From an uncultured Bacteroidales bacterium (GTDB lineage: Bacteria > Bacteroidota > Bacteroidia > Bacteroidales > P3): 64,000 bases of DNA. Made by a program: the position numbers and the translations under genes. Position 1 is the first letter of the stretch. Every line of letters starts with the position of its first letter. The DNA lies in NCBI GenBank assembly GCA_905233895.1, contig CAJOFL010000006.1:1-64000 (forward strand). Reading direction: 5' to 3'. Below, one piece after another: positions 6,760-50,246 of this stretch. Below the pieces are notes generated by a model, which made no database searches, had not been told where the DNA came from, and saw only the letters and a list, made by a program, of their open reading frames with translations.

Positions 6760-8373
6760 TCAAGATTTCCTTCTGAACAACCGTTGGAAGAATTTCTTCC
6801 AGGTCGACCCGTCGAAGAAAGCCGAGTCGGTGGTGGCCTGCAACGTAAGCACTATGCCTATCGGCAGCATCACCAACGACGAAATCCACATGCCCTCGGG
6901 GCCCATGGCCGACTCGCGCACAGCCTTCTCGCTGATCATTCCCACCACATAGTAGAACACGAAGAACCCGACCGATGCCACCAGCGGCAATCCCAGTCCT
7001 CCCTTGCGCACAATCGAACCAAACGGGGCGCCGATAAGGAACAGCAGCAGGCAGGCAATGGAGAGGGTGAACTTGCGCTGCTTCTCAATCTTGTGGCGGT
7101 TGATATACTCGGTGTCGCCGCGAATCATATCGTTGTAGCTGCGCGCCTCGGACATGGAGGTGACTACGATATTCCTGGTGCGGTTGCGGACACGCTTGGC
7201 GGTACCGTCGTCGAGGTCGGCAAGGAGCGACTTGAGGGTGGCATTGCTATGGACGGGATGTATAAAGACACTGTCGTCCTCAATTGCCTCATTGGTGTCG
7301 GAAACCTCGGGGACTATCCCGGCCACTTCGTCGAGAGCCTTGGCAAGGCTGTCTTGATGGTGGCGGGTGGAGAATATCATATTCTTTACCTTCAGCGGCT
7401 CCTGGGGCTCGGCGGTGGCCTCGGGGGCAGCAATCTCGGACGCCGAAGCGGCTGAAACCCCGCTACGGCCACAATAGCCCGACCATGCACGAAGTGGTAC
7501 GTCGATGCTGCGACGCAACTCGGAATATCGTCCGCCCAAGTTGCTGTCAAGTCGCGCCACAGCGGCATCAAGCTGCAGGATATTCATCATTTGGTAACTG
7601 CCCTTGAAAAGGTCTTCGCCACTGCGGTTGTAGGCAAACGACGAAATATCGAAGGCTATGGTCTGCCTGTCGAACCGCACCGTGGTCAGCGGACGGGACT
7701 GATAATGCTTGCCGGTGGTGTATTCGGAATAGGAATAGCCGTCAGTGAGAGTGAACAGCAGATAACGGTTGTCGAGGGTGGTCTGCATCAGACCACTACG
7801 GGCCACAATAACATTATTCTCCCCCACCCCATGGCTATGGTCGTAGATGATGACATCCTCCAAAGTACAGCCGTCGGGAGCCTTGGAGCCCACACGGATG
7901 ACGTAGCCCTCGATATCCTTGTAGTATTCGCCCGGACGGATATTGACGGCAGGCTTCTTACGGGTGATGTCATAAAGCGTCATACGGTAGTGCAACATGG
8001 CCTGCGGCATGACATCGTTTGAGAAGACAAACGCCACGCCGGTCAGCAGCAGCACCACCAAGGCCATAGGCAGCATCACACGGCTGATGGATACACCGCC
8101 GGCCTTCATGGCTACCAACTCGTACTTCTCGCCGAAATTACCCATGGTCATTATCGAGGCGAAAAGGACCGCTATTGGCAAGGCCATCGGCACAAAGGTG
8201 GCCGAAGCATAGAGAAGCAACTCGGCAATGACACCGAACTCAAGGCCTTTGCCCACCATATCGTCGATATACTTCCACAAGAACTGCATAAGCAGCACGA
8301 ACACACTGATGGCAAATGTCAGCACCAGCGGCCCGACGAACGAGCGGAGTATCAGACGATCAAGTTTCTTCAT
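6760..8373 (-). CDS. LptF/LptG family lipopolysaccharide export permease
   Basis: 537 residues from ATG 8373. This is an inner-membrane permease of the YjgP/YjgQ family, which with LptB extracts LPS from the inner membrane for transport to the surface. Visible are the N-terminal membrane helix (LILRSFVGPLVLTFAISVFV), the conserved stretch around MTMGNFGEKYELVAMKAGG, a periplasmic beta-jellyroll region in the middle and closing C-terminal helices (LLLFLIGAPFGSIVRKGGLG). The start overlaps the rseP stop as TGATG, indicating translational coupling. An upstream ATG at 8391 is less likely. Which of LptF and LptG it represents cannot be decided. Confidence 0.88.
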   Translation of the reverse strand: MKKLDRLILRSFVGPLVLTFAISVFVLLMQFLWKYIDDMVGKGLEFGVIAELLLYASATFVPMALPIAVLFASIMTMGNFGEKYELVAMKAGGVSISRVMLPMALVVLLLTGVAFVFSNDVMPQAMLHYRMTLYDITRKKPAVNIRPGEYYKDIEGYVIRVGSKAPDGCTLEDVIIYDHSHGVGENNVIVARSGLMQTTLDNRYLLFTLTDGYSYSEYTTGKHYQSRPLTTVRFDRQTIAFDISSFAYNRSGEDLFKGSYQMMNILQLDAAVARLDSNLGGRYSELRRSIDVPLRAWSGYCGRSGVSAASASEIAAPEATAEPQEPLKVKNMIFSTRHHQDSLAKALDEVAGIVPEVSDTNEAIEDDSVFIHPVHSNATLKSLLADLDDGTAKRVRNRTRNIVVTSMSEARSYNDMIRGDTEYINRHKIEKQRKFTLSIACLLLFLIGAPFGSIVRKGGLGLPLVASVGFFVFYYVVGMISEKAVRESAMGPEGMWISSLVMLPIGIVLTLQATTDSAFFDGSTWKKFFQRLFRRKS

Positions 8374-9767
8374 CACATTAATCCAAGCCAACGCATGATG
8401 TCGTTACCGTTGGCCAAAATCATCAACGCAAGCAATAGCCACATACCGACGTTCTGCGCCACGGTGAGGAATTTGTCGCTCGGCTTGCGGCCGCTGACAA
8501 TCTCCCAGAGGGTGAACAGGATATGACCGCCGTCGAGGCCAGGTATGGGAATAATATTCATGAAGGCGAGTATCAACGCCAAGAGGGCGGTGATATTCCA
8601 GAAAGACTGCCAATCCCAGTGGTCGGGGAAGATGCTGGCCATCGTACCGAACCCGCCGAGGCTCTGTGCGCCACCGGGGGCGAAGAGCATACGCAGCGAA
8701 CTGACATAGTCCACAAGGGTCTCCCATCCAAAGCTGATACCGGCAGGAATGGCCTGAAGGAAAGTATAGTCCTTATGCACCATCGTGAAGAAACGGTCGG
8801 CTCCTTCGGTGAAAACGCCTATGCGGCCGTTCGATGGCACCTCGACCAAGGTGAACATAAGTTCGCCGTCGCGGTAGTAGGCAAGGGTGGCGGTATCGCC
8901 CGCACGGGCTTTGAGCGCAGCGGTGACCTCATGATAAAACACCGTAGGCTCGCCACCGACACTAACAAGGCTGTCGCCCGCAAGCATACCAGCCCGCTTC
9001 GCAACAGAACCGTCGACGAAGTCCTTGACCACAAAGGGCAGGCGCGGAATCATCATGTTCTTGACCTGTCGCTTGCCGACCTTCTCGGCAAGGTTGCCGG
9101 ATGGATGAAGCTCCACAAGGGAGTCACCGCGCAGGACGGTCACCTGCTGTGGCTTGTCGAGCAAGAGGGTCATAAGAGCATCCGAAGTGCTGGTATATTC
9201 ACACCCGTCAATAGTACGGATAATATCGCCGTCGCAGAAACCATCCTCCTGAAGCACCTCGTGGTATGCATAGCCATAGGTGGCATTGGCCATCGGGAGT
9301 TCGGTGGTGCCCCAGTGGGCAAATATCATACCGTATATGAGCAGGGCAGAGATGAAATTGACCAGCACACCGCCGCTGATGATAAGCAGGCGCTGCCATG
9401 CTGGCTTGGTACGGTATTCCCACGGCTGCGGCACGTCCTCAAGGTCGTCGGCTTTCTTGGTCTCGTCGACCATACCGGCAATGTCACAGTAGCCACCCAG
9501 CGGTATCCAACCGAGACCCCAGAGGGTATTGTTCTGATCCTCGGGGGCAAGGTTCTTGGCATCCCACGAATCGGGAGTATTGGCATTGAAGAAACGGAAA
9601 TGCCACTTGCCGCCGAACTTCTTGGCCTTAAGGATGGAAAACTTCCAATTGAAGAATACATAATATCTGTTCACGCGTGTGCGGAACAATTTGGCAAATA
9701 GCAGATGGCCTAATTCATGCGTTGCAACCAGCAAGGTGAGACTCAGTAGAAGGGCGAGCCATTTCAT
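8373..9767 (-). CDS. rseP: RIP metalloprotease RseP (site-2 protease)
   Basis: 464 residues. Membrane-embedded zinc protease of family M50 that cleaves transmembrane helices, classically those of anti-sigma factors. The HELGH zinc motif is at about residues 17-21, a PDZ region sits around 210-300 (KRAGMLAGDSLVSVGG) and the third metal ligand lies in IIPIPGLDGGH near 420. Its start overlaps the dxr stop by four bases (ATGA) and its stop overlaps lptF/G. The dxr-rseP order is common across bacteria. It is a natural candidate for releasing the membrane-fused sigma factor encoded at 48802-49764, but that link is inference. Confidence 0.93.
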   Translation of the reverse strand: MKWLALLLSLTLLVATHELGHLLFAKLFRTRVNRYYVFFNWKFSILKAKKFGGKWHFRFFNANTPDSWDAKNLAPEDQNNTLWGLGWIPLGGYCDIAGMVDETKKADDLEDVPQPWEYRTKPAWQRLLIISGGVLVNFISALLIYGMIFAHWGTTELPMANATYGYAYHEVLQEDGFCDGDIIRTIDGCEYTSTSDALMTLLLDKPQQVTVLRGDSLVELHPSGNLAEKVGKRQVKNMMIPRLPFVVKDFVDGSVAKRAGMLAGDSLVSVGGEPTVFYHEVTAALKARAGDTATLAYYRDGELMFTLVEVPSNGRIGVFTEGADRFFTMVHKDYTFLQAIPAGISFGWETLVDYVSSLRMLFAPGGAQSLGGFGTMASIFPDHWDWQSFWNITALLALILAFMNIIPIPGLDGGHILFTLWEIVSGRKPSDKFLTVAQNVGMWLLLALMILANGNDIMRWLGLM

Positions 9768-37532: not shown

Positions 37533-39314
37533 CTACAACAACACAACCTTGCTGGTTGTAATTCCATCGGCAGTGTGAATGCGGAGGTAATATGCACCGC
37601 GTTCAAGGCAACTGACATCTAATTCTACGCGGTTGCTAAAAATAGCCTGACGAATAATAGATTGACCAAGAAAGTTGACAAGTTCAATACAACTGCCATC
37701 TTGTATGCCATGTATTATCACGCGTTCTGTTGCAGGATTAGGATATACGATTATATCACCCCCCGAGGCAATATCTATACCATTACAGTTCTCATAGTAT
37801 ATACCCTCAAAAAGCCCCCAATAAGTGTCGGCGAGAAATGCATCGATGCTACAGCAAGGTATAATTATACTATCTACCGTAGCATCGACCAGGCAACCAT
37901 AATCGGCTCCATATTCCAGCGTGGTAAGGGAAACAGGAGGTTCGCTGTTCATCAATCGCAGCGATTCAAGATGATGACCCGTGAAAGCCTCCGGCTCTAT
38001 AGTGTCGACTGGGGCTGAGAAGGCAACCCGACGCAACGTTCCGTCATAATAGCCATTGAAAGCGCCGGCCCTAACTGACCGCAGCGTGGCTGGCAGATAA
38101 AGTTCCTCAAACGAGCATCCACCAAATGCAAACGAATCTATTACAGCCACGTTATTGCCCCACGTAATATGCGACAAGGCGGTGCTGCCAAAGAATGCAG
38201 AATTGGGGATGGTATGCAAGCCATCCGGTATCTCAATATATGTCAAGTTGGTGCAATATTCAAAGCAACCATGCCCCATAGTATCCAAAGAAGCTGGCAT
38301 ACCGACCCGAATCAGCGACTCACAGTCAACAAATGCGTATTCGTCTATAAATGACACACTATTCGGCAGGTCAATGTACATCAGAGAACTGTTCTCAAAA
38401 GCATTCTCGTTAATAACAGTCACACCATCGGGAACGTGAACATATCTAATGTTGTTGTTGCCACCAAATCCACCCACAACTCTGAGTGACGCAGGCAGGA
38501 ATATGGAATCTACACTCTTGTGGCACGATACAAGCGTGTCGCCGCCCGAAGAGTAGATCATCATCCCATCCATATAGTAATGGCTGTTCCCACTAGCGAT
38601 AGAAAGAGTGTTGAGGGCGGTGCAACCCTCAAAAAGATTTGAGCCAACAAACGACACCGTCGAGGGAATAGTAATATTGCTTAGGGTGCTAGCGAACATA
38701 AAAGCACCGTAACCAATGCTTGAAACACCCTCGTGTATAGTCACGCTCGAAAGCGAGTGGCTGTAGGCAAAAGAAAAACGTCCGATATGCTGCGTGGACG
38801 GCGGCAGGACGACCGAGCCACTTTTACCAGCTGGATACTGCACAAGCGTAGTGGTGTCTTTGCTAAACAGAAGCCCATCAACCGTACAGTAGTTAGAGTT
38901 ATCCTCCGACACAATGATGTAGGTCAAATTCAATGCCGATAGCGCCATCTCATCGATTTCCGTTACCGAGGCGGGAATATAAATGGCCGTCGGCCCAGTG
39001 GCAAGAAGGAAACATTGCGTTTTTATTCTTGTGATAGAGGTAGGGATAGACACACTGGAGAGATTGGCCCTGTAAAACGCCAGTTCACCCAATGCCACTA
39101 CATCATACGTGACGCCGCCATACGTTACCGTAGACGGCACAGTGAAATTGCCACCATAAGGACTTCCCGACCACCGCATGGTTAATTCCACAGTGTGGTC
39201 TGCTTCCGAAAGCACATTATATGCCCTGCCGCCAGTCTCGAAATGCTGCGCCACAAGGGCGGAAGGAAGGCATAGTACCGCCAGAGCGGCGAAAAAGCGA
39301 AATGTTTTTTTCAT
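37533..39314 (-). CDS. BspA-type leucine-rich-repeat surface protein with T9SS tail
   Basis: 593 residues. Signal peptide (MKKTFRFFAALAVLCLPSALVAQ), then about 12 LRR_5 (BspA/Treponema-type) repeats of about 23 residues with cores such as LSSVSIPTSITRI, LTYIEIPDGLHTIPNSAFFG and LSNITIPSTVSFVG. The last ~80 residues are a T9SS sorting domain (IIVYPNPATERVIIHG...NFLGQSIIR...ERGAYYLRI). Family members bind host proteins or co-aggregate. It starts 29 bases after the sensor gene of the sigma locus, so it is probably a member, and possibly the target, of that locus. Confidence 0.9.
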   Translation of the reverse strand: MKKTFRFFAALAVLCLPSALVAQHFETGGRAYNVLSEADHTVELTMRWSGSPYGGNFTVPSTVTYGGVTYDVVALGELAFYRANLSSVSIPTSITRIKTQCFLLATGPTAIYIPASVTEIDEMALSALNLTYIIVSEDNSNYCTVDGLLFSKDTTTLVQYPAGKSGSVVLPPSTQHIGRFSFAYSHSLSSVTIHEGVSSIGYGAFMFASTLSNITIPSTVSFVGSNLFEGCTALNTLSIASGNSHYYMDGMMIYSSGGDTLVSCHKSVDSIFLPASLRVVGGFGGNNNIRYVHVPDGVTVINENAFENSSLMYIDLPNSVSFIDEYAFVDCESLIRVGMPASLDTMGHGCFEYCTNLTYIEIPDGLHTIPNSAFFGSTALSHITWGNNVAVIDSFAFGGCSFEELYLPATLRSVRAGAFNGYYDGTLRRVAFSAPVDTIEPEAFTGHHLESLRLMNSEPPVSLTTLEYGADYGCLVDATVDSIIIPCCSIDAFLADTYWGLFEGIYYENCNGIDIASGGDIIVYPNPATERVIIHGIQDGSCIELVNFLGQSIIRQAIFSNRVELDVSCLERGAYYLRIHTADGITTSKVVLL

Positions 39315-39343: not shown

Positions 39344-40468
39344 TCAAAACCCGTTACCCCAATAATGATAAGAGCCGCCTACAGGGGCGCTGTTGCGCAG
39401 AGGTGCAGACACCTTGATGGCCGGACTATCACCAACCTGAACCAGGAAAGCACTGGTATGGTGAAAACTCATGCCATTGCCAATACTGATACGGCACTGT
39501 CCGTTGCATAGTTCGGAAGTTATCAGGCGACCCTCGAAGTCGTAGACACGCACAACCTCGCCGTAAACGCCCTCCACAATAAGGTAATTACCATTGAACT
39601 TGATGGTAGCATGTGATGATATGGGCAAAAGCGGTGCCTCGCAGGTGTCGACTATGGTATCAAACCAATCCCAGCAGTGGGCAATACGGTAAGCGGTACC
39701 ACTGCGACAGGGAACCGCAAGAACGGCCTCCTGTGGAACCTCCCAGAAACACCACTCACCAATAATCTTCGGCGGAGTTTCCGGCAGTGCAATAAGGCTG
39801 TCGAGACGCGAGCAGCCGCAAAATGCATCAAGCCCAATGGTTGTCAGGGTAGGGGGAAGTGTGACAGAACGGAGTTCACGGCAATCGGCTAACGCACTGT
39901 CGGCCAATGCGGTGACAGAATAACGGAGTCCGTCATGCTCCACCGAAGCGGGCAGCACCAAGGCCCCTTCGGGGTGCGCGGAGGAACCTTGGACGCTGAC
40001 GCTCACGGATTTTGCAACCATAAGGACCTTGCAGAAGAGGGAGTCGCCCGACGACAACTGCACGACAAAATCCCACCGCGGCAAGGGCTCCATGGCGGCC
40101 ATTTTTGGCCCCTCTGCAAGCTCGACATGATCGATCGGTAGAACTGACAGGGCCACGGCGGAATCGACCTCCAGGGGTTTTATTTCCTTTTCGCGCTGTG
40201 CAGAGGGCGGGGTAGGGGATACGGGCTCGGAAACAGGGGTCCCCTTGGAGTGAAACACGGCATGACGAAGGTCCGGAACCGTAGTCATGGCCACGGCGGA
40301 AAGTGTCACTAGCAGCAACAGCGAGGCCAACGCCCGCTTTGCAAAGCGTGCATACCCCACACGACACTGGCACCATTGCTCGAGGCCGTCGGTCATTTCG
40401 CGCTGCAAATCGTCGGCATCGAAGTCATGTAGGCGGTTGATCAGGTTATTAATATCATTGTCATTCAT
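39344..40468 (-). CDS. Single-pass membrane sensor/anti-sigma-like protein with BspA-like repeat region
   Basis: 374 residues. Cytoplasmic N-terminus of about 45 residues (DINNLINRLHDFDADDLQRE), one membrane helix (about 46-63, LASLLLLVTLSAVAMTTV), a Pro/Glu-rich spacer, an LRR_5-like region (about 166-280, SVTLPPTLTTIGLDAFCGC) and a C-terminal module (about 291-353, VRVYDFEGRLITSELCNGQ) resembling a T9SS sorting fold. The helix and C-terminal module match the membrane-fused sigma factor at 48802-49764 (ICNGICTF, VVPQWRKALFG versus TVPDLRHAVFH). It overlaps the sigma gene by eight bases. Anti-sigma activity is inferred, not shown. Confidence 0.75.
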   Translation of the reverse strand: MNDNDINNLINRLHDFDADDLQREMTDGLEQWCQCRVGYARFAKRALASLLLLVTLSAVAMTTVPDLRHAVFHSKGTPVSEPVSPTPPSAQREKEIKPLEVDSAVALSVLPIDHVELAEGPKMAAMEPLPRWDFVVQLSSGDSLFCKVLMVAKSVSVSVQGSSAHPEGALVLPASVEHDGLRYSVTALADSALADCRELRSVTLPPTLTTIGLDAFCGCSRLDSLIALPETPPKIIGEWCFWEVPQEAVLAVPCRSGTAYRIAHCWDWFDTIVDTCEAPLLPISSHATIKFNGNYLIVEGVYGEVVRVYDFEGRLITSELCNGQCRISIGNGMSFHHTSAFLVQVGDSPAIKVSAPLRNSAPVGGSYHYWGNGF

Positions 40469-40946
40469 GTCTATTCAAGTCACGTAAACGTTTAATCACA
40501 CGGTGTAGACGCTGGTAGACGGCATCGCGACCGATCCCGATATGGGCAGCGATTTCGGCGGCAGAGTAGCCTTCGAGGCGGAGCCTGACTATGGTGGAGT
40601 CGGGTTCGGCGAGGGAAGCCACAAGATCGGCGACAACCTCGGCCTCGGAACTGCCGGAATCGGCTATGGTTTCGGCCATATCGGGCGTCAACGGCTGGTA
40701 GGCGGGCTGCCGGCCACGGTGCAGGTGGTTAAGGGTACGACGGGTGTTGAGTGTCACCCAGGAACGTTCCTCGCGCTGGCTGGCGCCTGGCCGCAAGCTC
40801 CCAAAATGTTCCCAAAGGTCGGAGACAACCTCCTGAACCAGATCGCGGCAACGCTCCCAGTCGCCGCCGGCATAGCGCCAACAGAGCGCCCACACACGGC
40901 TGCGGTGACGCATCAGGAGGTCGGAGTATGCACTATGACGGTCCAT
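40461..40946 (-). CDS. ECF-type RNA polymerase sigma factor
   Basis: 161 residues. Sigma-2 region (HRSRVWALCWRYAGGDWERC, RDLVQEVVSDLWEHF) at about 13-50 and sigma-4 helix-turn-helix (LEGYSAAEIAAHIGIGRDAV, then YQRLHRVIKRLR) at about 115-155, the normal ECF length. It is a clear paralogue of the first 157 residues of the fused protein at 48802-49764 (both MDR, RHR..VW..CW, LRLEGY, RDAVYQRLHR). The upstream 32-base element at 40957-40988 is shared with that gene and is probably an autoregulated promoter. Confidence 0.9.
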   Translation of the reverse strand: MDRHSAYSDLLMRHRSRVWALCWRYAGGDWERCRDLVQEVVSDLWEHFGSLRPGASQREERSWVTLNTRRTLNHLHRGRQPAYQPLTPDMAETIADSGSSEAEVVADLVASLAEPDSTIVRLRLEGYSAAEIAAHIGIGRDAVYQRLHRVIKRLRDLNRHE

Positions 40947-40956
40947 CTATAACAAT

Positions 40957-40988
40957 ATAATACCCACTTTTTTGCCGAAATCTGACAT
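40957..40988 (-). promoter_or_regulatory. Shared ECF sigma-locus promoter element, copy 1
   Basis: Minus-strand block reading ATGTCAGATTT (40988-40978), then CGGC plus six A, then GTGGGTATTAT (40967-40957), ending 10 bases before the sigma start. It matches the block at 49785-49816 at 27 of 32 positions with no gap. The layout, a conserved upstream box and a conserved downstream box around an A-run, fits an ECF -35/-10 promoter. Confidence 0.7.
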
Positions 40989-43831: not shown

Positions 43832-46800
43832 TTAGCGATAGAAGTAGTCATTCACCTTATCGCGGTAGAATGGCTGCAGTGACGGAGGCAACGTGTGCAG
43901 TTGGCCTTCGCCCGAATGAAACTGCCGTTTATACTTCTCCAGCTCGGCCGGCGACGGCTGGCTGTAGATGTCGCCCGCCTCGTGGCTCTCGCGGTGTTCC
44001 TCTTTCTCGCGCTCCATTTCGGCCTTTTCGTGCTCCAGTAGTCGGGTCATAATCTGCTGCTGTCGCTGTATGGTCTGCCGCGTGATGGTGCGGTTCACTA
44101 GGTCGGTCTCTGTCTGCTCCATCTGGCGCATGAGCTGGTCAATCTCCTTGGCCAGCTTGCTGTTGCCTGCATCCCCCTCCTTCAACTCCTGACCGTACTG
44201 CTGCATCATGCGGCGTATCAATTCCTGCTGGGCGGCCATCTTAGCAAACTCCTCGCTTATCTGCTGCCCCCGCCCCAACTGATGCCGCCCGCCGGGCTTG
44301 TTGCCCTGCTTGTCGAGTTGCTTCTTGAGGGCCTCCATCTGCTTGTTCAACTCTTCCTGCATCTGGCGCATCGACTTTGGCGACGGCTTCCCGTTTCCAG
44401 GATTGCTGCACTGGTTGTTGCTCCTGCCGGGGTTCTTGCACTGTCCGTTCTTTTTTTTCTGCGCATTCTGGCGCATCTGGTTCTGCATCTGGTCAAGGCT
44501 CTCGGCCAGCACCAGCGCCAGATTGTTGAGCGACGTCATCGAATACTGCATCGATCGGGCGGCATTGTTATTCTTGTAGCTGCCATAAAAACTCTGGTTC
44601 ATGTCCAGCAGGCTAGAGAGCGACTTGGCCACGTTCGAGTTCACATCACCAAGTTCCTTGGTGATGGCCGTGGCCACGTTGAGCTGGCGGCGGGCCATGG
44701 CGCGCAACGAATCCTCCACTATACGGAAGTCATCCTTCACGCGATTCTGACGTGCAATGATGGTCTGGTACTTCGGATCCTGGATATATATGGAATTGAC
44801 ATCGGTGATGAGCGACTCCTGGTTGAACGAGAGCTGCACCAAATTCTTAAGCAACTGGCGTATCAGTTCGGCATCCTCGGCCAAGTCCTGCAGTTCGGCA
44901 TCCACCTGCGCCTCTGCCAGCGCCTCGCTCATTTGCTCCATATCGTCGGCAGCCTCCTGCTGCTGCTTATATGCATCCTTGTTCTTGCCCTTCTGCAGGC
45001 TCTGCTGAGCCTCTTTCTGGTGCTGTTCTATCTGCTTTTCAAGGTCCTCAGGCACCTTAAAGTCGGTACTCGGGTCGAGGTCCTTATAGTCCTGTTTAAT
45101 CTGATCCACATCTTGCTTCAACAACTGGAAGCGGTCATTCAGTTCCTGCTGCTTCTGTATCAGTTCATCCTTGTCCTTTCCTTTGGCCTGCTCTGTTTCA
45201 CGCGAAACATCGCGTTGCTCCTGGGCCAGCTTATCCATCTTCTCAATTGTCTGCTCCACCTTCTTCTCAATTTCCAAACGCTTCATGAGTTCTATGTTTT
45301 GATACAACTGCTTTTCCAACTCCGCATTGTCAATTTTCAACTGCTCCAACTGCTCTTGTACCTTCTTCTTGTCCAGCTCCTGTATCATACGGTCTATCTC
45401 CGCCATCGTCTCTTTCATCTTTTCGTCCATCACTTCGTTCATCAGGCGGTCCAACTCGCGCTGCTTTTCCATCAACTGCTCGCTCTGCTCACGGTAGCGC
45501 TGCTCCATGCGGTTGTTCTCCTTTATCTGGTGCTGCATCTGCTGCATCATGGCCTTCACTTGCTTCTGCTTCTCGGCAATTTGCTCCAAATCCTTGCGGT
45601 CTTGCCAATTAAGCTCCTTCTTGTCCACCAAGCGTCGCATCATCTCGTTTATCTCCTCCTGCAGCCGCTGCAACTCACTCATCTGGACGTCGGCGCTCTG
45701 TCGCACCTCTGTGTTGCTCTGCTCCAATATACGGTCAAACTCTTCTTCTGTGGGTATCTTTATCTCGAAGACTTGCGATTTGGCACTCTTCGGCCCATGG
45801 ATGGCATCATTGTCACTCACCTCGAAATAATAAGTCAACTCGTCACCTGGTAGAATGTACTGTATCTCGGCCGTGTTGAAATAGAAGTAAAACTCCTGCG
45901 AGGTATTGTTCTTCTCAATCGCAAGTTCAACCTCTACGACTTTGTTTCTCGTCGTGTCCTTGGGATTTACCGTCTTATGTAGAAAAACAAGCTTAGAGAA
46001 GCCATAATCGTCCTTTATGCGGCCGCGAAACAGCCGGCGGTCTGGGAGCAGTGAGTCAATCGTCTCTTCGACCGCTATCATCGGCACCGCATCCTTTATG
46101 GCTGAAAGGGTGTAACTGAGCGTGTCTGAGGTGCTGTACCGGCTGCTGACACAGAATGAGTAGGGGAGGTCTTCCGTCACTCGGCGACTCACCTCTGTGC
46201 GCCCGTTGGAGCCAACAGCACACCCCATCATACGCTCAACGTTGCCCACTTCAAAGTGAAGTGTATCGGCATCCTGTGTTTGGAATATCCAACGCACCAT
46301 TGTACCCTCGGGTATCGCCGCATCGCCCAAATCCACCATCGTTTCGGTTTCGCGGCCGGTATAGGCAGGGTAGGAAAGGACCATCAAGAACGAAACTACA
46401 GCGGGATTGGGCAGCACCTCAAGGCGATACTGCGCCGAGGTCACTCCACCTCCCTCTATCAAGAACTCCTGCGTACGCTGCAGGTTGCGGAAAGCATACA
46501 CAAAAGTTCCCTTGCGACCGTCGGCGGAACGCATACGGTAGCGATGCCCGTCAACCACTATATAGGCTTCGGCGGGTATAGCCTCGCCCTCGGTGGTGAT
46601 CCGCAGGTCATAGTCCTCACCCTGCATCACCTCAAGACTTTTGTTCTCCACCACAAAGCGGAACGGTGCCGGCCGTTCATAAACGGTATTGTAGTTAGCA
46701 ATCCGGTGGGTGGGGCCGGTCACCGCGGCGGGGGCTGCCACAAGCAATGCCACCAGTACCACCAGCGGCGGCATCGAATATTTCAAATACTTCCTGTTAC

Positions 46801-47242
46801 CCTTGAGGTCAATAGCACTGAGCATAGGCACCGGACGCAACTGCGCCGTTTTCTGTTCAATGGCCGCCAGCAGCAACTCCGACTCCGAACTCTCTTCCAT
46901 CAGCTGCAGCAAATTGAGAAGCTTGTCGCTCACCTCCGGAAAATGCTTCCCCACGATGCGGGCAGCATCAACATGGCTTATGCGCTTGCCAAAGCCCTGC
47001 ATCTTCAACAAAGGGCGCACAACCAGCCATGCAACCACGGCCGTAACGGCCGTCAGGCCACCCCAGAACAATATACCGCGCCACAGGCTCGATAACCACC
47101 CGAAATGCTCCAGAAGTACCGCCATAAGGAAGATAGTAATCACAATACCAATAGTATACAAGATTCCACGAATTAGGATATTCTTGTAGTACTTCCTGAT
47201 GAACGCGTCAAGCGCCTGCAATATGTCTGAAGGTCTTTTCAT
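43832..47242 (-). CDS. DUF4175 family membrane-anchored coiled-coil protein
   Basis: 1,136 residues from ATG 47242 (MKRPSDILQALDAFIRK). Two membrane helices near the N-terminus (about 23-45 and 48-68) and a third at about 155 (MPPLVVLVALLVAAPAAV). Then beta-rich extracytoplasmic domains to about 530, and a very long Gln/Glu/Lys-rich coiled coil (about 540-830) with LEQLKIDNAELEKQLYQNIE-type heptads. A Met/Gln-rich tail follows. DUF4175 is a large Bacteroidota family of unknown function. Its coding sequence contains a near-perfect parS at 45194-45209. Confidence 0.85.
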   Translation of the reverse strand: MKRPSDILQALDAFIRKYYKNILIRGILYTIGIVITIFLMAVLLEHFGWLSSLWRGILFWGGLTAVTAVVAWLVVRPLLKMQGFGKRISHVDAARIVGKHFPEVSDKLLNLLQLMEESSESELLLAAIEQKTAQLRPVPMLSAIDLKGNRKYLKYSMPPLVVLVALLVAAPAAVTGPTHRIANYNTVYERPAPFRFVVENKSLEVMQGEDYDLRITTEGEAIPAEAYIVVDGHRYRMRSADGRKGTFVYAFRNLQRTQEFLIEGGGVTSAQYRLEVLPNPAVVSFLMVLSYPAYTGRETETMVDLGDAAIPEGTMVRWIFQTQDADTLHFEVGNVERMMGCAVGSNGRTEVSRRVTEDLPYSFCVSSRYSTSDTLSYTLSAIKDAVPMIAVEETIDSLLPDRRLFRGRIKDDYGFSKLVFLHKTVNPKDTTRNKVVEVELAIEKNNTSQEFYFYFNTAEIQYILPGDELTYYFEVSDNDAIHGPKSAKSQVFEIKIPTEEEFDRILEQSNTEVRQSADVQMSELQRLQEEINEMMRRLVDKKELNWQDRKDLEQIAEKQKQVKAMMQQMQHQIKENNRMEQRYREQSEQLMEKQRELDRLMNEVMDEKMKETMAEIDRMIQELDKKKVQEQLEQLKIDNAELEKQLYQNIELMKRLEIEKKVEQTIEKMDKLAQEQRDVSRETEQAKGKDKDELIQKQQELNDRFQLLKQDVDQIKQDYKDLDPSTDFKVPEDLEKQIEQHQKEAQQSLQKGKNKDAYKQQQEAADDMEQMSEALAEAQVDAELQDLAEDAELIRQLLKNLVQLSFNQESLITDVNSIYIQDPKYQTIIARQNRVKDDFRIVEDSLRAMARRQLNVATAITKELGDVNSNVAKSLSSLLDMNQSFYGSYKNNNAARSMQYSMTSLNNLALVLAESLDQMQNQMRQNAQKKKNGQCKNPGRSNNQCSNPGNGKPSPKSMRQMQEELNKQMEALKKQLDKQGNKPGGRHQLGRGQQISEEFAKMAAQQELIRRMMQQYGQELKEGDAGNSKLAKEIDQLMRQMEQTETDLVNRTITRQTIQRQQQIMTRLLEHEKAEMEREKEEHRESHEAGDIYSQPSPAELEKYKRQFHSGEGQLHTLPPSLQPFYRDKVNDYFYR
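45194..45209. other. parS-like site (one mismatch) inside the DUF4175 gene
   Basis: TGTTTCACGCGAAACA differs from the palindromic parS core TGTTTCACGTGAAACA at one position. On the coding strand it encodes Val-Ser-Arg-Glu-Thr. Confidence 0.5.
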
Positions 47243-47257
47243 TACCAAAAGGATTTG

Positions 47258-47265
47258 CAAAAATA
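47258..47265 (-). promoter_or_regulatory. Putative -7 element for the DUF4175 gene
   Basis: Minus-strand TATTTTTG (47265-47258), 15 bases before the start. No good -33 element at standard spacing was found. Confidence 0.4.
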
Positions 47266-47296
47266 CAAAATATTTTACAACCTCTAAAATAATTCG

Positions 47297-47304
47297 TATC
47301 TTTG
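47297..47304 (+). promoter_or_regulatory. -7 element of the SDR gene promoter
   Basis: TATCTTTG at 47297-47304 with a T-rich tract about 20 bases upstream; start codon at 47324. Confidence 0.6.
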
Positions 47305-47323
47305 CAAAAATTTTGAAGTCATT

Positions 47324-48127
47324 ATGGAACAAAAGGTAATCGTCATCACCGGAGCCTCGTCGGGTTTCGGAAAAGCCACGGCCGCCATGCTGGCCGACAA
47401 GGGCCACTGCGTCTACGGTCTCTGCCGCCGCGAGATGCAGGACACACAGATACGCTACCGCCAGTGCGATGTGCGCGACCGCGAGCAGGTTACCGCTGTT
47501 GTAGCCGCAATAATAGCAGCCGAGGGCCATATCGATGTACTAATAAATAACGCAGGTATGGGCATCGGTGGCGCGCTTGAGCTGGCCACCGCCGAGGAGA
47601 TTGACCTCCAGATGGGTACCAACTTCATGGGCTGCGTCAACCTTTGCCAGGCCGTTTTGCCCTATATGCGCCTTCAATGCTCAGGCAAAATCATCAACCT
47701 GAGCTCTATCGGTGGCCTTATGGGCCTGCCCTATCAGGGCTTCTACTCGGCATCGAAATTTGCCATTGAGGGCTTCACCGAGGCTCTTGCCGCCGAGGTG
47801 ACACGCTTCGGCATCCGCGTCTGCATGGTCGAACCTGGCGACTTCGCCACCGGCTTCACCGGCAGCCGCAAGAACAGTCAGGCCACCATGGACGACCCCG
47901 ACTACGGCCCTATATTCCGCAATTCACTTGCCATCATTGAGAAGGAAGAGAACGGCGGCCTGCAGCCCGAGGTGCTGGCCCGCCGCATAGTGAAGCTGGT
48001 GGAGATGAAGAACCCGCCGCTGCGCAACGTGGTGGCCAACCTCGAGCAGTGGCTCTCCACTGTCATCAAGCGCATCCTGACAGGCAATCAGATGGTCTCG
48101 ATACTGCGAGATTACTATAAGAGCTAA
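47324..48127 (+). CDS. Short-chain dehydrogenase/reductase
   Basis: 267 residues, classical SDR. NAD(P)-binding TGASSGFGKATA at 9-20, INNAGMGIGG at about 75, catalytic Ser in NLSSIGG (about 127) and YSASK (about 141-145). The C-terminal portion includes PGDFATGFT. The substrate cannot be read from sequence. It is the only plus-strand gene between 34.5 and 54 kb. One possibility is 3-ketosphinganine reduction, given the serine palmitoyltransferase 4 kb away, but this is speculative. Its stop nearly meets the convergent gene at 48129. Confidence 0.85.
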   Translation: MEQKVIVITGASSGFGKATAAMLADKGHCVYGLCRREMQDTQIRYRQCDVRDREQVTAVVAAIIAAEGHIDVLINNAGMGIGGALELATAEEIDLQMGTNFMGCVNLCQAVLPYMRLQCSGKIINLSSIGGLMGLPYQGFYSASKFAIEGFTEALAAEVTRFGIRVCMVEPGDFATGFTGSRKNSQATMDDPDYGPIFRNSLAIIEKEENGGLQPEVLARRIVKLVEMKNPPLRNVVANLEQWLSTVIKRILTGNQMVSILRDYYKS

Positions 48128-48128
48128 A

Positions 48129-48788
48129 TTACTTTATTTTAATACCCAATATCCATATCTTGTAATCGACAGCATTGCTGTCGGATGCGGGATGGTATAC
48201 TTCGGGATATATCAACTCGAAGGGGGAAGTGATTTTGTAACCCATCGCCCTGAGCTTAAAGAAGAGCTTGTAATATTTCCAACTGAAACTAATATCGGGA
48301 TTCCCTACTGGATCCATCTCCCCACTGAAGTTCCACAAGCGCGGGTCGTTAGGGTCATTGATGAGCAGACCCATGTAGGCCAGCAAGTTACCTGCCGGCA
48401 CCCGTAACGTTACCGGCCTCAATAGTTTTATCCCAAGACTATAGTCGATGGTAGGTTCAGGCATCTCGCCCATGGGCGGCTGTACATAATGACGTATCAG
48501 CGTATGTCTTGATAGAGACAGGCCCTTGTAGTGGCACAGCGTGTCGCCAAACTGCACCACCAGTATATCGTAGGTTCCCTCTGGCACCGGAGGCAATGAG
48601 TATCTTCCCGAATAGTCGCTCACAGCCTTGGCCATGCTCTTACCATCGGCCAAAAGCTGCACCACGCATAGCGGCAATCCGTTACCGTCGACGCTGTTGA
48701 TAACGAAGCCCTCGACCGACAGACTTTGCGCGGCGGCGTGGAACTGCAGGAAAAGTAGCATCAACAGTAGTGACATTAAGCGTCTCAT
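48129..48788 (-). CDS. Exported CarboxypepD_reg-like domain protein
   Basis: 219 residues. Signal peptide (MRRLMSLLLMLLFLQFHAAAQ), then a carboxypeptidase-regulatory-like beta-sandwich (about 22-95, VEGFVINSVDGNGLPLCVVQ, YSGRYSLPPVPEGTYDILV). The C-terminal ~120 residues are unrecognised (PVTLRVPAGNLLAYMGLLIN, FSWKYYKLFFKLRAMGYKI). The first domain is the usual N-terminal extension of TonB-dependent receptors, but no receptor follows here. It starts 13 bases after the fused sigma gene's stop and is almost certainly co-transcribed with it. Confidence 0.75.
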   Translation of the reverse strand: MRRLMSLLLMLLFLQFHAAAQSLSVEGFVINSVDGNGLPLCVVQLLADGKSMAKAVSDYSGRYSLPPVPEGTYDILVVQFGDTLCHYKGLSLSRHTLIRHYVQPPMGEMPEPTIDYSLGIKLLRPVTLRVPAGNLLAYMGLLINDPNDPRLWNFSGEMDPVGNPDISFSWKYYKLFFKLRAMGYKITSPFELIYPEVYHPASDSNAVDYKIWILGIKIK

Positions 48789-48801: not shown

Positions 48802-49764
48802 TTATTGTATCACCTCTATCATGGGGCGACTTCCAATCTTAACCTTGTAGCAGTAACGTCTGCCGACAGAGATATAATCATCGTCGGGGAAGAGGGTGAA
48901 GGTGCATATTCCGTTGCATATCTGCGATGCCAGCATATTGCCGTTCATGCTGTACACCGTCACACGCTCGTCATAGACGCCGCTCACCGTCAGATGGCAA
49001 CCGTCGACTGCCACCGTGGGTGCCTCAAGGCTTGACGGCAGCGGCTCGACAGCATCGATAGCAGGCTCCGCAAATTCTATATATTCCATTGGTTCCTGGC
49101 GCTCACGGGGTGCAGGCTTGAGGCGTACAAAAGTTGCCACAGTGTCAACAGTATCGATAGGAATGTGTTTCACCAGTTCCGAAACTACCGGCTCTTGCTC
49201 GGTAGAGCCGAAAAGTGCCTTGCGCCATTGCGGCACTACAGCTATGGCTACCGTGGTAGTTGCAAGAAGCAACAGCAACATAACCACCAGGACACGCCTG
49301 GCCTTGACAATAGCGCGGTGCAAACGTTGGTAGACGGCATCACGGTTCAACCCCATAATGACTGCAATCTCATCGGGGCGATAACCTTCCAAGCGTAGCG
49401 ACAGCAGGCGCTGCTCGTCAGGGTTAAGGGTGGCCATAACTTCAGCAATATCCTCTTCGACACGCTTTTCGTCATCGCCGGCAAGACTGTCGACCATTGA
49501 CGCCGTGATAGGCACGGTGATTGGCTGCTTGCGTCTTCCCATATGTTCGAACAACGATTGCACCTGCAATCGCACCCAAGCACACTCCTCGCCGGGTGTG
49601 GCGTCTGGGCGCAACTTGTCAAAGTTGAGCCATAATGCTATAGAAACCTCCTGCAGCAGGTCGCAACAACGGTCCCAATTGCCACGGGCACGTAGCCAAC
49701 ACATGCGCCACACCTGGGTGCGGTGGCGCAGCAACAGTGCTGTATAAGTGTCGTAGCGATCCAT
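48802..49764 (-). CDS. Membrane-fused ECF sigma factor with extracytoplasmic domain
   Basis: 320 residues in one uninterrupted frame. Sigma-2 (RHRTQVWRMCWLRARGNWDR, DLLQEVSIALWLNF) at about 13-50 and sigma-4 helix-turn-helix (LEGYRPDEIAVIMGLNRDAV, then YQRLHRAIVKARR) at about 115-157. A membrane helix follows at once (158-176, VLVVMLLLLLATTTVAIAV), then a Pro/Glu-rich spacer and a C-terminal module (253-320, VTVYSMNGNMLASQICNGIC) homologous to the end of the separate sensor at 39344-40468. With the HTH next to the bilayer, the factor probably has to be released by proteolysis. Upstream lie the shared promoter element (49785-49816) and a terminator; a secreted-protein gene follows. Confidence 0.88.
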   Translation of the reverse strand: MDRYDTYTALLLRHRTQVWRMCWLRARGNWDRCCDLLQEVSIALWLNFDKLRPDATPGEECAWVRLQVQSLFEHMGRRKQPITVPITASMVDSLAGDDEKRVEEDIAEVMATLNPDEQRLLSLRLEGYRPDEIAVIMGLNRDAVYQRLHRAIVKARRVLVVMLLLLLATTTVAIAVVPQWRKALFGSTEQEPVVSELVKHIPIDTVDTVATFVRLKPAPRERQEPMEYIEFAEPAIDAVEPLPSSLEAPTVAVDGCHLTVSGVYDERVTVYSMNGNMLASQICNGICTFTLFPDDDYISVGRRYCYKVKIGSRPMIEVIQ

Positions 49765-49784
49765 GTTTACCCTTTTCTATAAAT

Positions 49785-49816
49785 ATAATAACCCTTTTTT
49801 TACCAAAATCTGACAT
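49785..49816 (-). promoter_or_regulatory. Shared ECF sigma-locus promoter element, copy 2
   Basis: Minus-strand block ATGTCAGATTT (49816-49806), then TGGT plus seven A, then GGGTTATTAT (49794-49785), ending 20 bases before the fused-sigma start. It aligns without gaps to 40957-40988 (27 of 32 identical) and is bounded upstream by the terminator at 49825-49855. Confidence 0.7.
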
Positions 49817-49874: not shown

Positions 49875-50246
49875 TTAGATTTTCTCAAACTCGGCAATGT
49901 CCTTGGGGCTGTCGGGGTCGGAGAGAATCATCTTGCTCTTGGTAATCTTGTCAATGTTGAACTTCTGAGCTTCACCAAAGATGGACAGCGAGAGCACATC
50001 GTTCTCAATGGAGTAAGTGGCGGCGGGGGCGGAGAAGCCCTGCATCTCGACAATGACAGTGTTGTCGGCCTTGAACTCCCAGGTCATACCAATCTCACCG
50101 CCTTCGGTGTAGGTCTCACCGTTGTCAACGATTTTGACGCATTTCCACTTGCCGATAATCAGGTCTTCGGCCTTCTGGCAGGAGGTCATGGCGAAACTGA
50201 AGGCTACGAATGCCATCAGCATTGCTGCTACTTTGAACTTTTTCAT
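49875..50246 (-). CDS. Lipocalin-like lipoprotein
   Basis: 123 residues. Lipoprotein signal MKKFKVAAMLMAFVAFSFAMTSC, then a single small beta-barrel-like domain (IIGKWKCVKIVDNGETYTEG, MTWEFKADNTVIVEM, YSIENDVLSLSIFG) of the lipocalin-like type widespread in Bacteroidales lipoproteins. The ligand is unknown. It is transcribed alone, ending in the hairpin at 49825-49855. Confidence 0.8.
   Translation of the reverse strand: MKKFKVAAMLMAFVAFSFAMTSCQKAEDLIIGKWKCVKIVDNGETYTEGGEIGMTWEFKADNTVIVEMQGFSAPAATYSIENDVLSLSIFGEAQKFNIDKITKSKMILSDPDSPKDIAEFEKI

Follow-up and report, generated by a model that had tools for sequence, protein, structure and literature searches.

A putative self-tethered sigma factor: an ECF sigma factor in one chain with a membrane helix and a T9SS-CTD-like domain in an uncultured Bacteroidales bacterium

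How might an ECF sigma factor be controlled when its own chain runs from the sigma-4 domain straight into the membrane? The question is raised by a gene of a gut bacterium of the order Bacteroidales, located in the 64,000 nucleotides of contig CAJOFL010000006.1 that were analysed here (the window; Table 1). In Bacteroidetes, 6% of the ECF sigma factors are reported to adjoin a class I anti-sigma factor, versus 32% on average, and the control of the rest is described as open (PMC7406223). The window contains two candidates for such control, namely a membrane partner whose short cytoplasmic segment is of an unrecognised kind, and a fusion that does without this segment.

Table 1. Features of the window discussed in the text, with their positions in the 64,000-nucleotide stretch.
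Feature	Position	Strand	Remarks
RseP-type site-2 protease	8373..9767	-	Peptidase_M50 E 1.1e-41, plus PDZ
LRR protein with T9SS sorting tail, adjoining the split pair	37533..39314	-	LRR_5 2.2e-65, Por_Secre_tail 6.2e-10
Membrane partner of the split sigma factor	39344..40468	-	374 aa; cytoplasmic segment (putative anti-sigma), TM, LRR, CTD-like domain with CNGQC
Split paralogue, sigma only	40461..40946	-	161 aa; pairwise score 362 versus shuffled mean 30
Promoter-like element of the split sigma gene	40956..40987	-	upstream; same element as that of the fused gene
Convergent SDR-type gene, syntenic marker	47324..48127	+	downstream of the fused gene
Secreted carboxypeptidase-regulatory-like protein	48129..48788	-	219 aa; 13 bp downstream of the fused gene; PF13620 E 7.6e-7, below cut-off
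Fused gene (ECF sigma + membrane helix + T9SS-CTD-like domain)	48802..49764	-	320 aa, one frame
T9SS sorting-domain-like beta domain of the fused protein	48805..49026	-	residues 247-320
C-N-G-I-C of the fused protein	48904..48918	-	residues 283-287
Low-confidence linker of the fused protein	49027..49224	-	residues 181-246; pLDDT <50 at 186-215 and 226-244
Juxtamembrane motif A-x-A-V-V-P-x-W	49225..49248	-	residues 173-180
Membrane helix of the fused protein	49237..49293	-	residues 158-176
Sigma-4 domain of the fused protein	49294..49464	-	residues 101-157; Pfam match
Sigma-2 domain of the fused protein	49516..49764	-	residues 1-83; fold matches 4lup_A, 5uxx_A
Promoter-like element of the fused gene	49784..49815	-	upstream; one otherwise fixed position differs
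Lipocalin-like lipoprotein	49875..50246	-	upstream of the fused gene; PF13648 E 1.1e-7

The preliminary description of the window had read the fused gene as one frame joining sigma-2 and sigma-4 of an ECF factor to a single membrane helix, with the sigma factor held at the membrane by its own chain; the first point is confirmed and the second is supported by the architecture. Beyond that description, the analysis brought out the split pair, the sorting-domain fold of the outer part, the conserved AxA and the promoter-like element. The protein has sigma-2 and sigma-4 and neither sigma-1.1 nor sigma-3, as is proper to an ECF factor. The TIGR02937 model scores above its cut-off over residues 8-157, the Pfam sigma-2 model alone scores below its own, and both folds are recovered by structure comparison. 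The hydrophobic segment, which lies at the same residues in relative L019, is preceded by the positively charged stretch KARR and is followed by what is predicted to be an extracytoplasmic domain, a single-pass arrangement of the IutY type. There is no N-terminal Sec signal peptide, the N-terminus being sigma-2 itself and the hydrophobic segment internal, and a ZAS domain is neither matched by Pfam in the fused protein at E<=1 nor given any room between sigma-4 and the membrane helix. In the AlphaFold model (28-row alignment, mean pLDDT 75.6, pTM 0.32) residues 141-175 form one helix, made up of the last helix of sigma-4 and the membrane segment, with a pLDDT of about 80-85 for residues 141-170 and of 59 for residues 171-180.

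A protein search with the fused protein returned 232 relatives at E<=0.001, and among the best 120 of these, 119 cover at least 86% of the query and one covers 49%. These 120 proteins were pooled with 49 frames from loci and with the window protein, giving 170 rows (168 distinct sequences). The junction between the helix-turn-helix and the membrane helix is kept throughout this pool, since A-x-x-P-x-W follows directly after the membrane helix in all 170 rows. The distance from the YQR motif of sigma-4 to the A of the junction is 29 in 166 rows, 28 in two and 30 in two, these last being the window protein and its identical database copy. Positions -3 and -1 read A-x-A in 165 of the 170 rows, the first residue being S, T or V in the other five. 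Such a fixed register, together with the unbroken helix of the model, suggests that sigma-4 stays near the membrane, and the conserved AxA at the outer face suggests a site-1 cut.

A scan of one genome per species retained 78 loci, with record titles that are mostly Bacteroidales or Bacteroidetes, many of them from the rumen. Some match was found in 156 of 190 genomes of the window's family, and, among the matches listed, those reaching past profile position 300 come from at least 45 genomes, all of the window's own genus. Eight of the fused frames are about 800 residues long (L047, L056, L057, L059, L064, L069, L070 and L088). Three of these (L056, L059 and L069) were scanned and carry, in one chain, the sigma factor, leucine-rich repeats of the BspA type and an end that weakly resembles DUF6383; LRR_5 is strong in them, and DUF6383 (7.7e-5 to 0.01) is below cut-off in all three. 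Another fused relative, G094:C14:33868-34932, has one in-frame TAG and is possibly a decayed copy.

The window itself suggests where the fused architecture may have come from, as it also holds a split pair, in which the sigma gene and that of the membrane partner overlap by 8 nt. In 25 loci the relative is a sigma factor only, stopping where the membrane helix would start, and a second gene, which overlaps its stop codon, encodes a cytoplasmic segment, a membrane helix and a periplasmic part. A further candidate pair of the short-partner kind occurs in the same genome (L133 1834-2552, C8), with a 151-aa sigma frame and an overlapping frame of 88 residues that has a hydrophobic stretch. When fused and split proteins are compared, the sigma parts, the membrane helices and the C-terminal domains each align above all 300 shuffles. 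Leucine-rich repeats are present in the window's split partner as well as in the fused forms of about 800 residues. The AxA is found by text pattern at the end of the membrane helix in 17 of 20 long partners, of which two others have T-x-A and one falls outside the pattern window.

The cytoplasmic segment of the long partners reads NLIDRLQGFDxxELxxxMTDGLxEWC. In a model of the partner (16-row alignment, mean pLDDT 68.3) the cytoplasmic part consists of a helix at residues 3-14 and a second one, at residues 18-63, that continues through the membrane. No Pfam family, anti-sigma families included, matches this segment in 16 partners; its position and its pairing with the sigma gene point to a putative anti-sigma element of some 40 residues. 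Profiles of the segment, built from the 20 long partners, from the 19 short partners or from both, recover all 39 split partners. The long-partner profile recovers all 19 short ones and the short-partner profile all 20 long ones, which argues that the profiles do not merely recognise themselves, with the caveat that P0133 is a long partner bearing a short-type segment. Among the 170 fused rows, the same profiles give no match at E<=0.01, the best value being 0.35, which supports the earlier claim that no anti-sigma segment lies within the fused chain. A profile of the partner's membrane helix, on the other hand, matches 169 of the 170 fused rows at E<=1e-3, versus none of 170 when the letters of the helix are shuffled and none of 35 promoter-linked frames that are not sigma factors. 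Together, the two profile results imply that the short fused protein corresponds to a sigma factor plus the membrane helix of the partner and the CTD, minus the cytoplasmic segment.

In a tree of the sigma part (83 rows; L054, L093 and L094, of less than 140 aa as extracted, as well as L095 and L096, were omitted from both tree and synteny counts, and the outgroup L002 was not among the rows extracted) 17 short split pairs branch outside the remainder, and 40 fused rows group together with a support of 88/87. The base of the tree is weak: there may have been one fusion or two, and the proposed derivation of fused forms from split ones has weak ancestral-state support. L061 and L081 are labelled as sigma-only in these counts, and the partners of both carry QWC instead of EWC.

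The neighbourhood places the two versions at one site. Within 3 kb, a relative of the carboxypeptidase-regulatory-like gene occurs at 16 of 37 short fused loci and at three of four split-LRR loci, but at none of the 12 LRR-fused or the 18 short-split loci. Likewise, a relative of the SDR gene follows downstream at 18 of the 37 and at all four, respectively, and again at 0/12 LRR-fused and 0/18 short-split loci. The neighbours common to short fused and split-LRR loci indicate a syntenic site that holds either version. A relative of the lipocalin-like gene adjoins the fused L019 and L020 and lies further upstream of the split L063, L067, L072 and L081. In the window, the SDR gene is also adjoined by a gene (43832-47530) for a 1232-residue protein that matches DUF4175 and whose composition, by eye, is like that of a coiled coil.

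Both sigma genes of the window, as well as 58 of the 73 relatives examined, are preceded by a common promoter-like element, composed of a TGTCAGATTT-type box and a GTATTATA-type box; the rows among the 73 that gave no match are nine in the large fused clade (39 rows), five of the seven split-LRR rows, and L062. A loose pattern of the element occurs six times in the window's own genome, versus none for the reversed pattern: before both sigma genes, before the genes of a secreted LRR protein of 491 residues, whose end is of the DUF6383 type, and of a 249-residue putative lipoprotein, and at two places elsewhere. Of 109 genomes of the genus, 34 contain a stricter pattern, versus none for the reversed control. 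The pieces fetched contain 68 distinct sites. A single spacing, counted as N16, is common to 62 of them, in the form TGTCAGATTT-N12-GNGTATTATA, and two positions that the pattern leaves unconstrained are G in 62/62 and 61/62 of these common-spacing sites. The sole exception to the second G (position 25) is the site of the window's own fused gene. With start codons assigned by the longest-frame rule, the start lies 6-9 nt after the box in 18 of 29 common-spacing sigma frames, 11 of which have exactly 7 nt, a distance that would suit an mRNA with a very short leader or none; in the window's fused gene it lies 19 nt after the box.

The frames behind the 68 sites are 31 of this sigma family, 35 others and two sites with none. 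The Pfam and NCBIfam scans covered 35 other frames from a first pass over the sites, among which L186 was not yet included; in these frames Pfam gave LRR_5 in 14, PF13715 (carboxypeptidase-regulatory-like) in nine and DUF6383 in nine. Secreted-looking proteins of 429-447 residues recur behind the element (L167, L172, L177, L183, L200, L204, L227 and L231), and these are probably the members that match carboxypeptidase-regulatory-like domains. The form of the element varies with the clade of the sigma factor: it is GTMAGATTT, together with a box [AG]CGT[CT]TT, in all 17 short split rows and GGGTAWTGTA in all nine rows of the LRR-fused clade, whereas in the large fused clade 30 of the 39 rows have an element, 24 of them with TATTATA. 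Such variants could follow the sigma clades by shared descent alone, and linked descent may explain part of the pattern; the unlinked sites before LRR genes are the better argument for recognition of the element by these sigma factors. Just upstream of L026, L029, L032, L034 and L043, reverse copies of the TGTCAGAT box can be seen by eye, which suggests divergent promoters of the same kind.

Taken together, these observations favour, with a probability of roughly two in three, a self-tethered ECF sigma factor that would be freed by two-step proteolysis and would then drive the promoters bearing the element. Sigma-4 would be joined directly to a partner-type membrane helix and C-terminal domain, the cytoplasmic segment of about 40 residues having been lost, and the single helix from sigma-4 through the inner membrane would keep the sigma factor at the membrane and inactive, the tether taking the place of an anti-sigma factor. 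The input would likely be the CTD-like periplasmic domain meeting its signal. A signal-peptidase-like cut at site 1 would then fall near AxA/AVVPQW at the outer face of the membrane, followed by an intramembrane cut that would release the sigma factor, for which the RseP homologue is the natural site-2 candidate. Once released, the sigma factor would drive its own promoter as well as the promoters of lipoprotein genes and of genes for two kinds of secreted protein, LRR/CTD and carboxypeptidase-regulatory-like. This reading draws on the conserved junction, the split pair, the segment and membrane-helix profiles, the common locus, the element, the presence in the same genome of a signal peptidase and of the RseP homologue (real, as the preliminary description had supposed, by its peptidase and PDZ matches), and the reported release of IutY. 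Against it weigh the possible shared descent of the element, the rows in which it is not matched and the departure of the window's site at position 25, as well as the possibility that the sigma factor acts while tethered, the lack of a Pfam anti-sigma match in the 16 partners and the weak ancestral-state support.

The nature of the signal is the subject of a more tentative proposal, against which the odds lean: the CTD-like domain would be read as mock cargo by PorM/GldM, PorV or the translocon, which would license the cuts and so tie the expression of LRR/CTD surface proteins to the capacity for secretion, the fused protein being in effect a sensor of the state of the T9SS. By structure comparison the C-terminus of the fused protein has the T9SS CTD fold, with other beta sandwiches scoring not far below, and neither Por_Secre_tail nor DUF6383 has a Pfam match to the window protein at E<=1. 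The relationship with DUF6383-type tails rests on this fold and on the family profile, which matches four of eight DUF6383 loci of the own genome but none of the six Por_Secre_tail loci fetched from it, a result that counts against the proposal. The genome has matches to SprA, PorV, PorP and GldM and 53 sorting-tail matches, and secreted LRR proteins whose tails are DUF6383-type or CTD-like occur among the promoter-linked frames, all of which speaks for it; however, the exact element does not adjoin the sprA, porV, porP or gldM matches of that genome. The terminus also argues the other way: the GxRPxxK-type lysine is present in 10 of 11 tails of promoter-linked cargo but in only six of 157 short fused rows and four of eight LRR-fused rows, and it is missing from the window protein. 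These counts cover 165 of the 170 fused rows, the truncated or incomplete L048, L060, L066, L068 and L071 being omitted. The loss of the terminal lysine in most rows suggests that the CTD-like domain may no longer be treated as cargo. CxxxC, conversely, is found in 88 of the 157 short fused rows, in seven of eight LRR-type fused rows and in all 16 split partners, versus none of the 11 cargo tails. A putative lipoprotein of 249 residues (L130 3089-3838, C16 of the own genome), with CCGYC and no Pfam match, lies behind a variant of the element and is a possible redox partner of the CNGxC pair.

Precedents for the mock-cargo proposal come from Porphyromonas gingivalis, in which PorA, a CTD protein, acts upstream of PorXY and SigP (PMC7712824), and from the model of a review, in which substrates bind the inner-membrane T9SS component PorM through their CTDs (PMC7463736). 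The two precedents lead to a secretion-coupled reading of the sigma factor, tempered by the altered terminus: a sigma factor carrying its own mock-cargo tag would be freed when the T9SS engages the tag, or fails to engage it, and surface-protein genes would be matched to secretion capacity. Stated in this way it is a shade more doubtful still. Secretion-coupled control is exemplified by FlgM; the present case would be a T9SS counterpart, with the difference that the sigma factor itself would be the sensor, without an anti-sigma factor.

The self-tethered reading must also be set against two improbable ones in which release plays no part or regulates little. In the first, the sigma factor would be active while held at the membrane, recruiting RNA polymerase there in the manner of ToxR, and the signal would alter its conformation without cleavage. 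The very constant register and the continuous helix would suit conformational signalling, but the AxA at the outer face in 165/170 rows suggests a cut, and the split relatives retain a separate membrane partner instead. In the second, of similarly low probability, the chain would be a polyprotein in which signal peptidase always cuts at AxA, yielding a periplasmic or secreted domain and a sigma stub that RseP clears at once. The AxA and the positively charged KARR before the helix are in keeping with this idea, as are the forms of about 800 aa, which resemble a sigma factor joined to a secreted LRR-CTD protein. However, the hydrophobic stretch has about 18-19 residues, exceeding that of usual signal peptides, and the strong conservation of VVPxW beyond the cut site, like that of the register, would be left unexplained. 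Finally, an artefactual frameshift or assembly fusion of two genes, which the existence of split versions might bring to mind, is refuted by conservation: across many assemblies the same fusion recurs in register, in every one of the 170 rows (168 distinct sequences).

The presence of the segment in one version and its absence from the other constitute a natural experiment, with which one could test whether a tether by itself is enough to silence a sigma factor. Through the T9SS-type domain, a connection of secretion to transcription could be tested directly in laboratory Bacteroidota. If the T9SS link is true, this would be a new kind of wiring. No sigma factor fused to a T9SS-type domain is described in the literature searched, mostly at the level of titles and abstracts; a group number in the 2021 ECF classification is possible.

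The fused architecture is unusual, and the nearest among the known kinds compared are the sigma/anti-sigma fusions, whose defining domain is absent here. IutY of Pseudomonas putida (ECF243) is such a fusion, and its release by Prc and RseP has been reported (PMC8999054). The fused protein resembles it in being a sigma factor with a membrane C-terminal extension; IutY, however, has an anti-sigma domain between sigma and membrane, which is lacking here, and the outer domain of the fused protein has instead the T9SS-CTD fold. The same source lists ECF48, ECF52 (SCO4117) and ECF53 of Actinobacteria, also with a C-terminal membrane extension and proposed proteolytic activation (PMC8999054). In those proteins a zinc-binding anti-sigma domain is described, along with one or two membrane helices, in contrast to the present protein, in which sigma-4 runs straight into a single helix. 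With the PorA/PorXY/SigP system the fused protein has in common the association of a T9SS CTD protein with an ECF sigma factor, but PorA is a separate surface protein that acts via a two-component system (PMC7712824), whereas here the CTD-like domain and the sigma factor are one chain. Compared with the T9SS type A sorting domain and DUF6383 of secreted cargo, to which it is related in fold and, for DUF6383-type tails, in family profile, the domain differs in being tethered to the inner membrane, in having mostly lost the terminal lysine and, in the window protein, in giving no direct Pfam match; its CNGxC pair is lacking in the 11 promoter-linked cargo tails. Lastly, the motifs AXA of RsiV and VQS of RsiP lie near the membrane helix, where a site-1 cut by signal peptidase is followed by the site-2 cut in the accounts consulted (PMC4183432, PMC8844934). 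In those systems it is the anti-sigma factor that is cut, whereas in the fused protein the cut would fall on the sigma factor itself.
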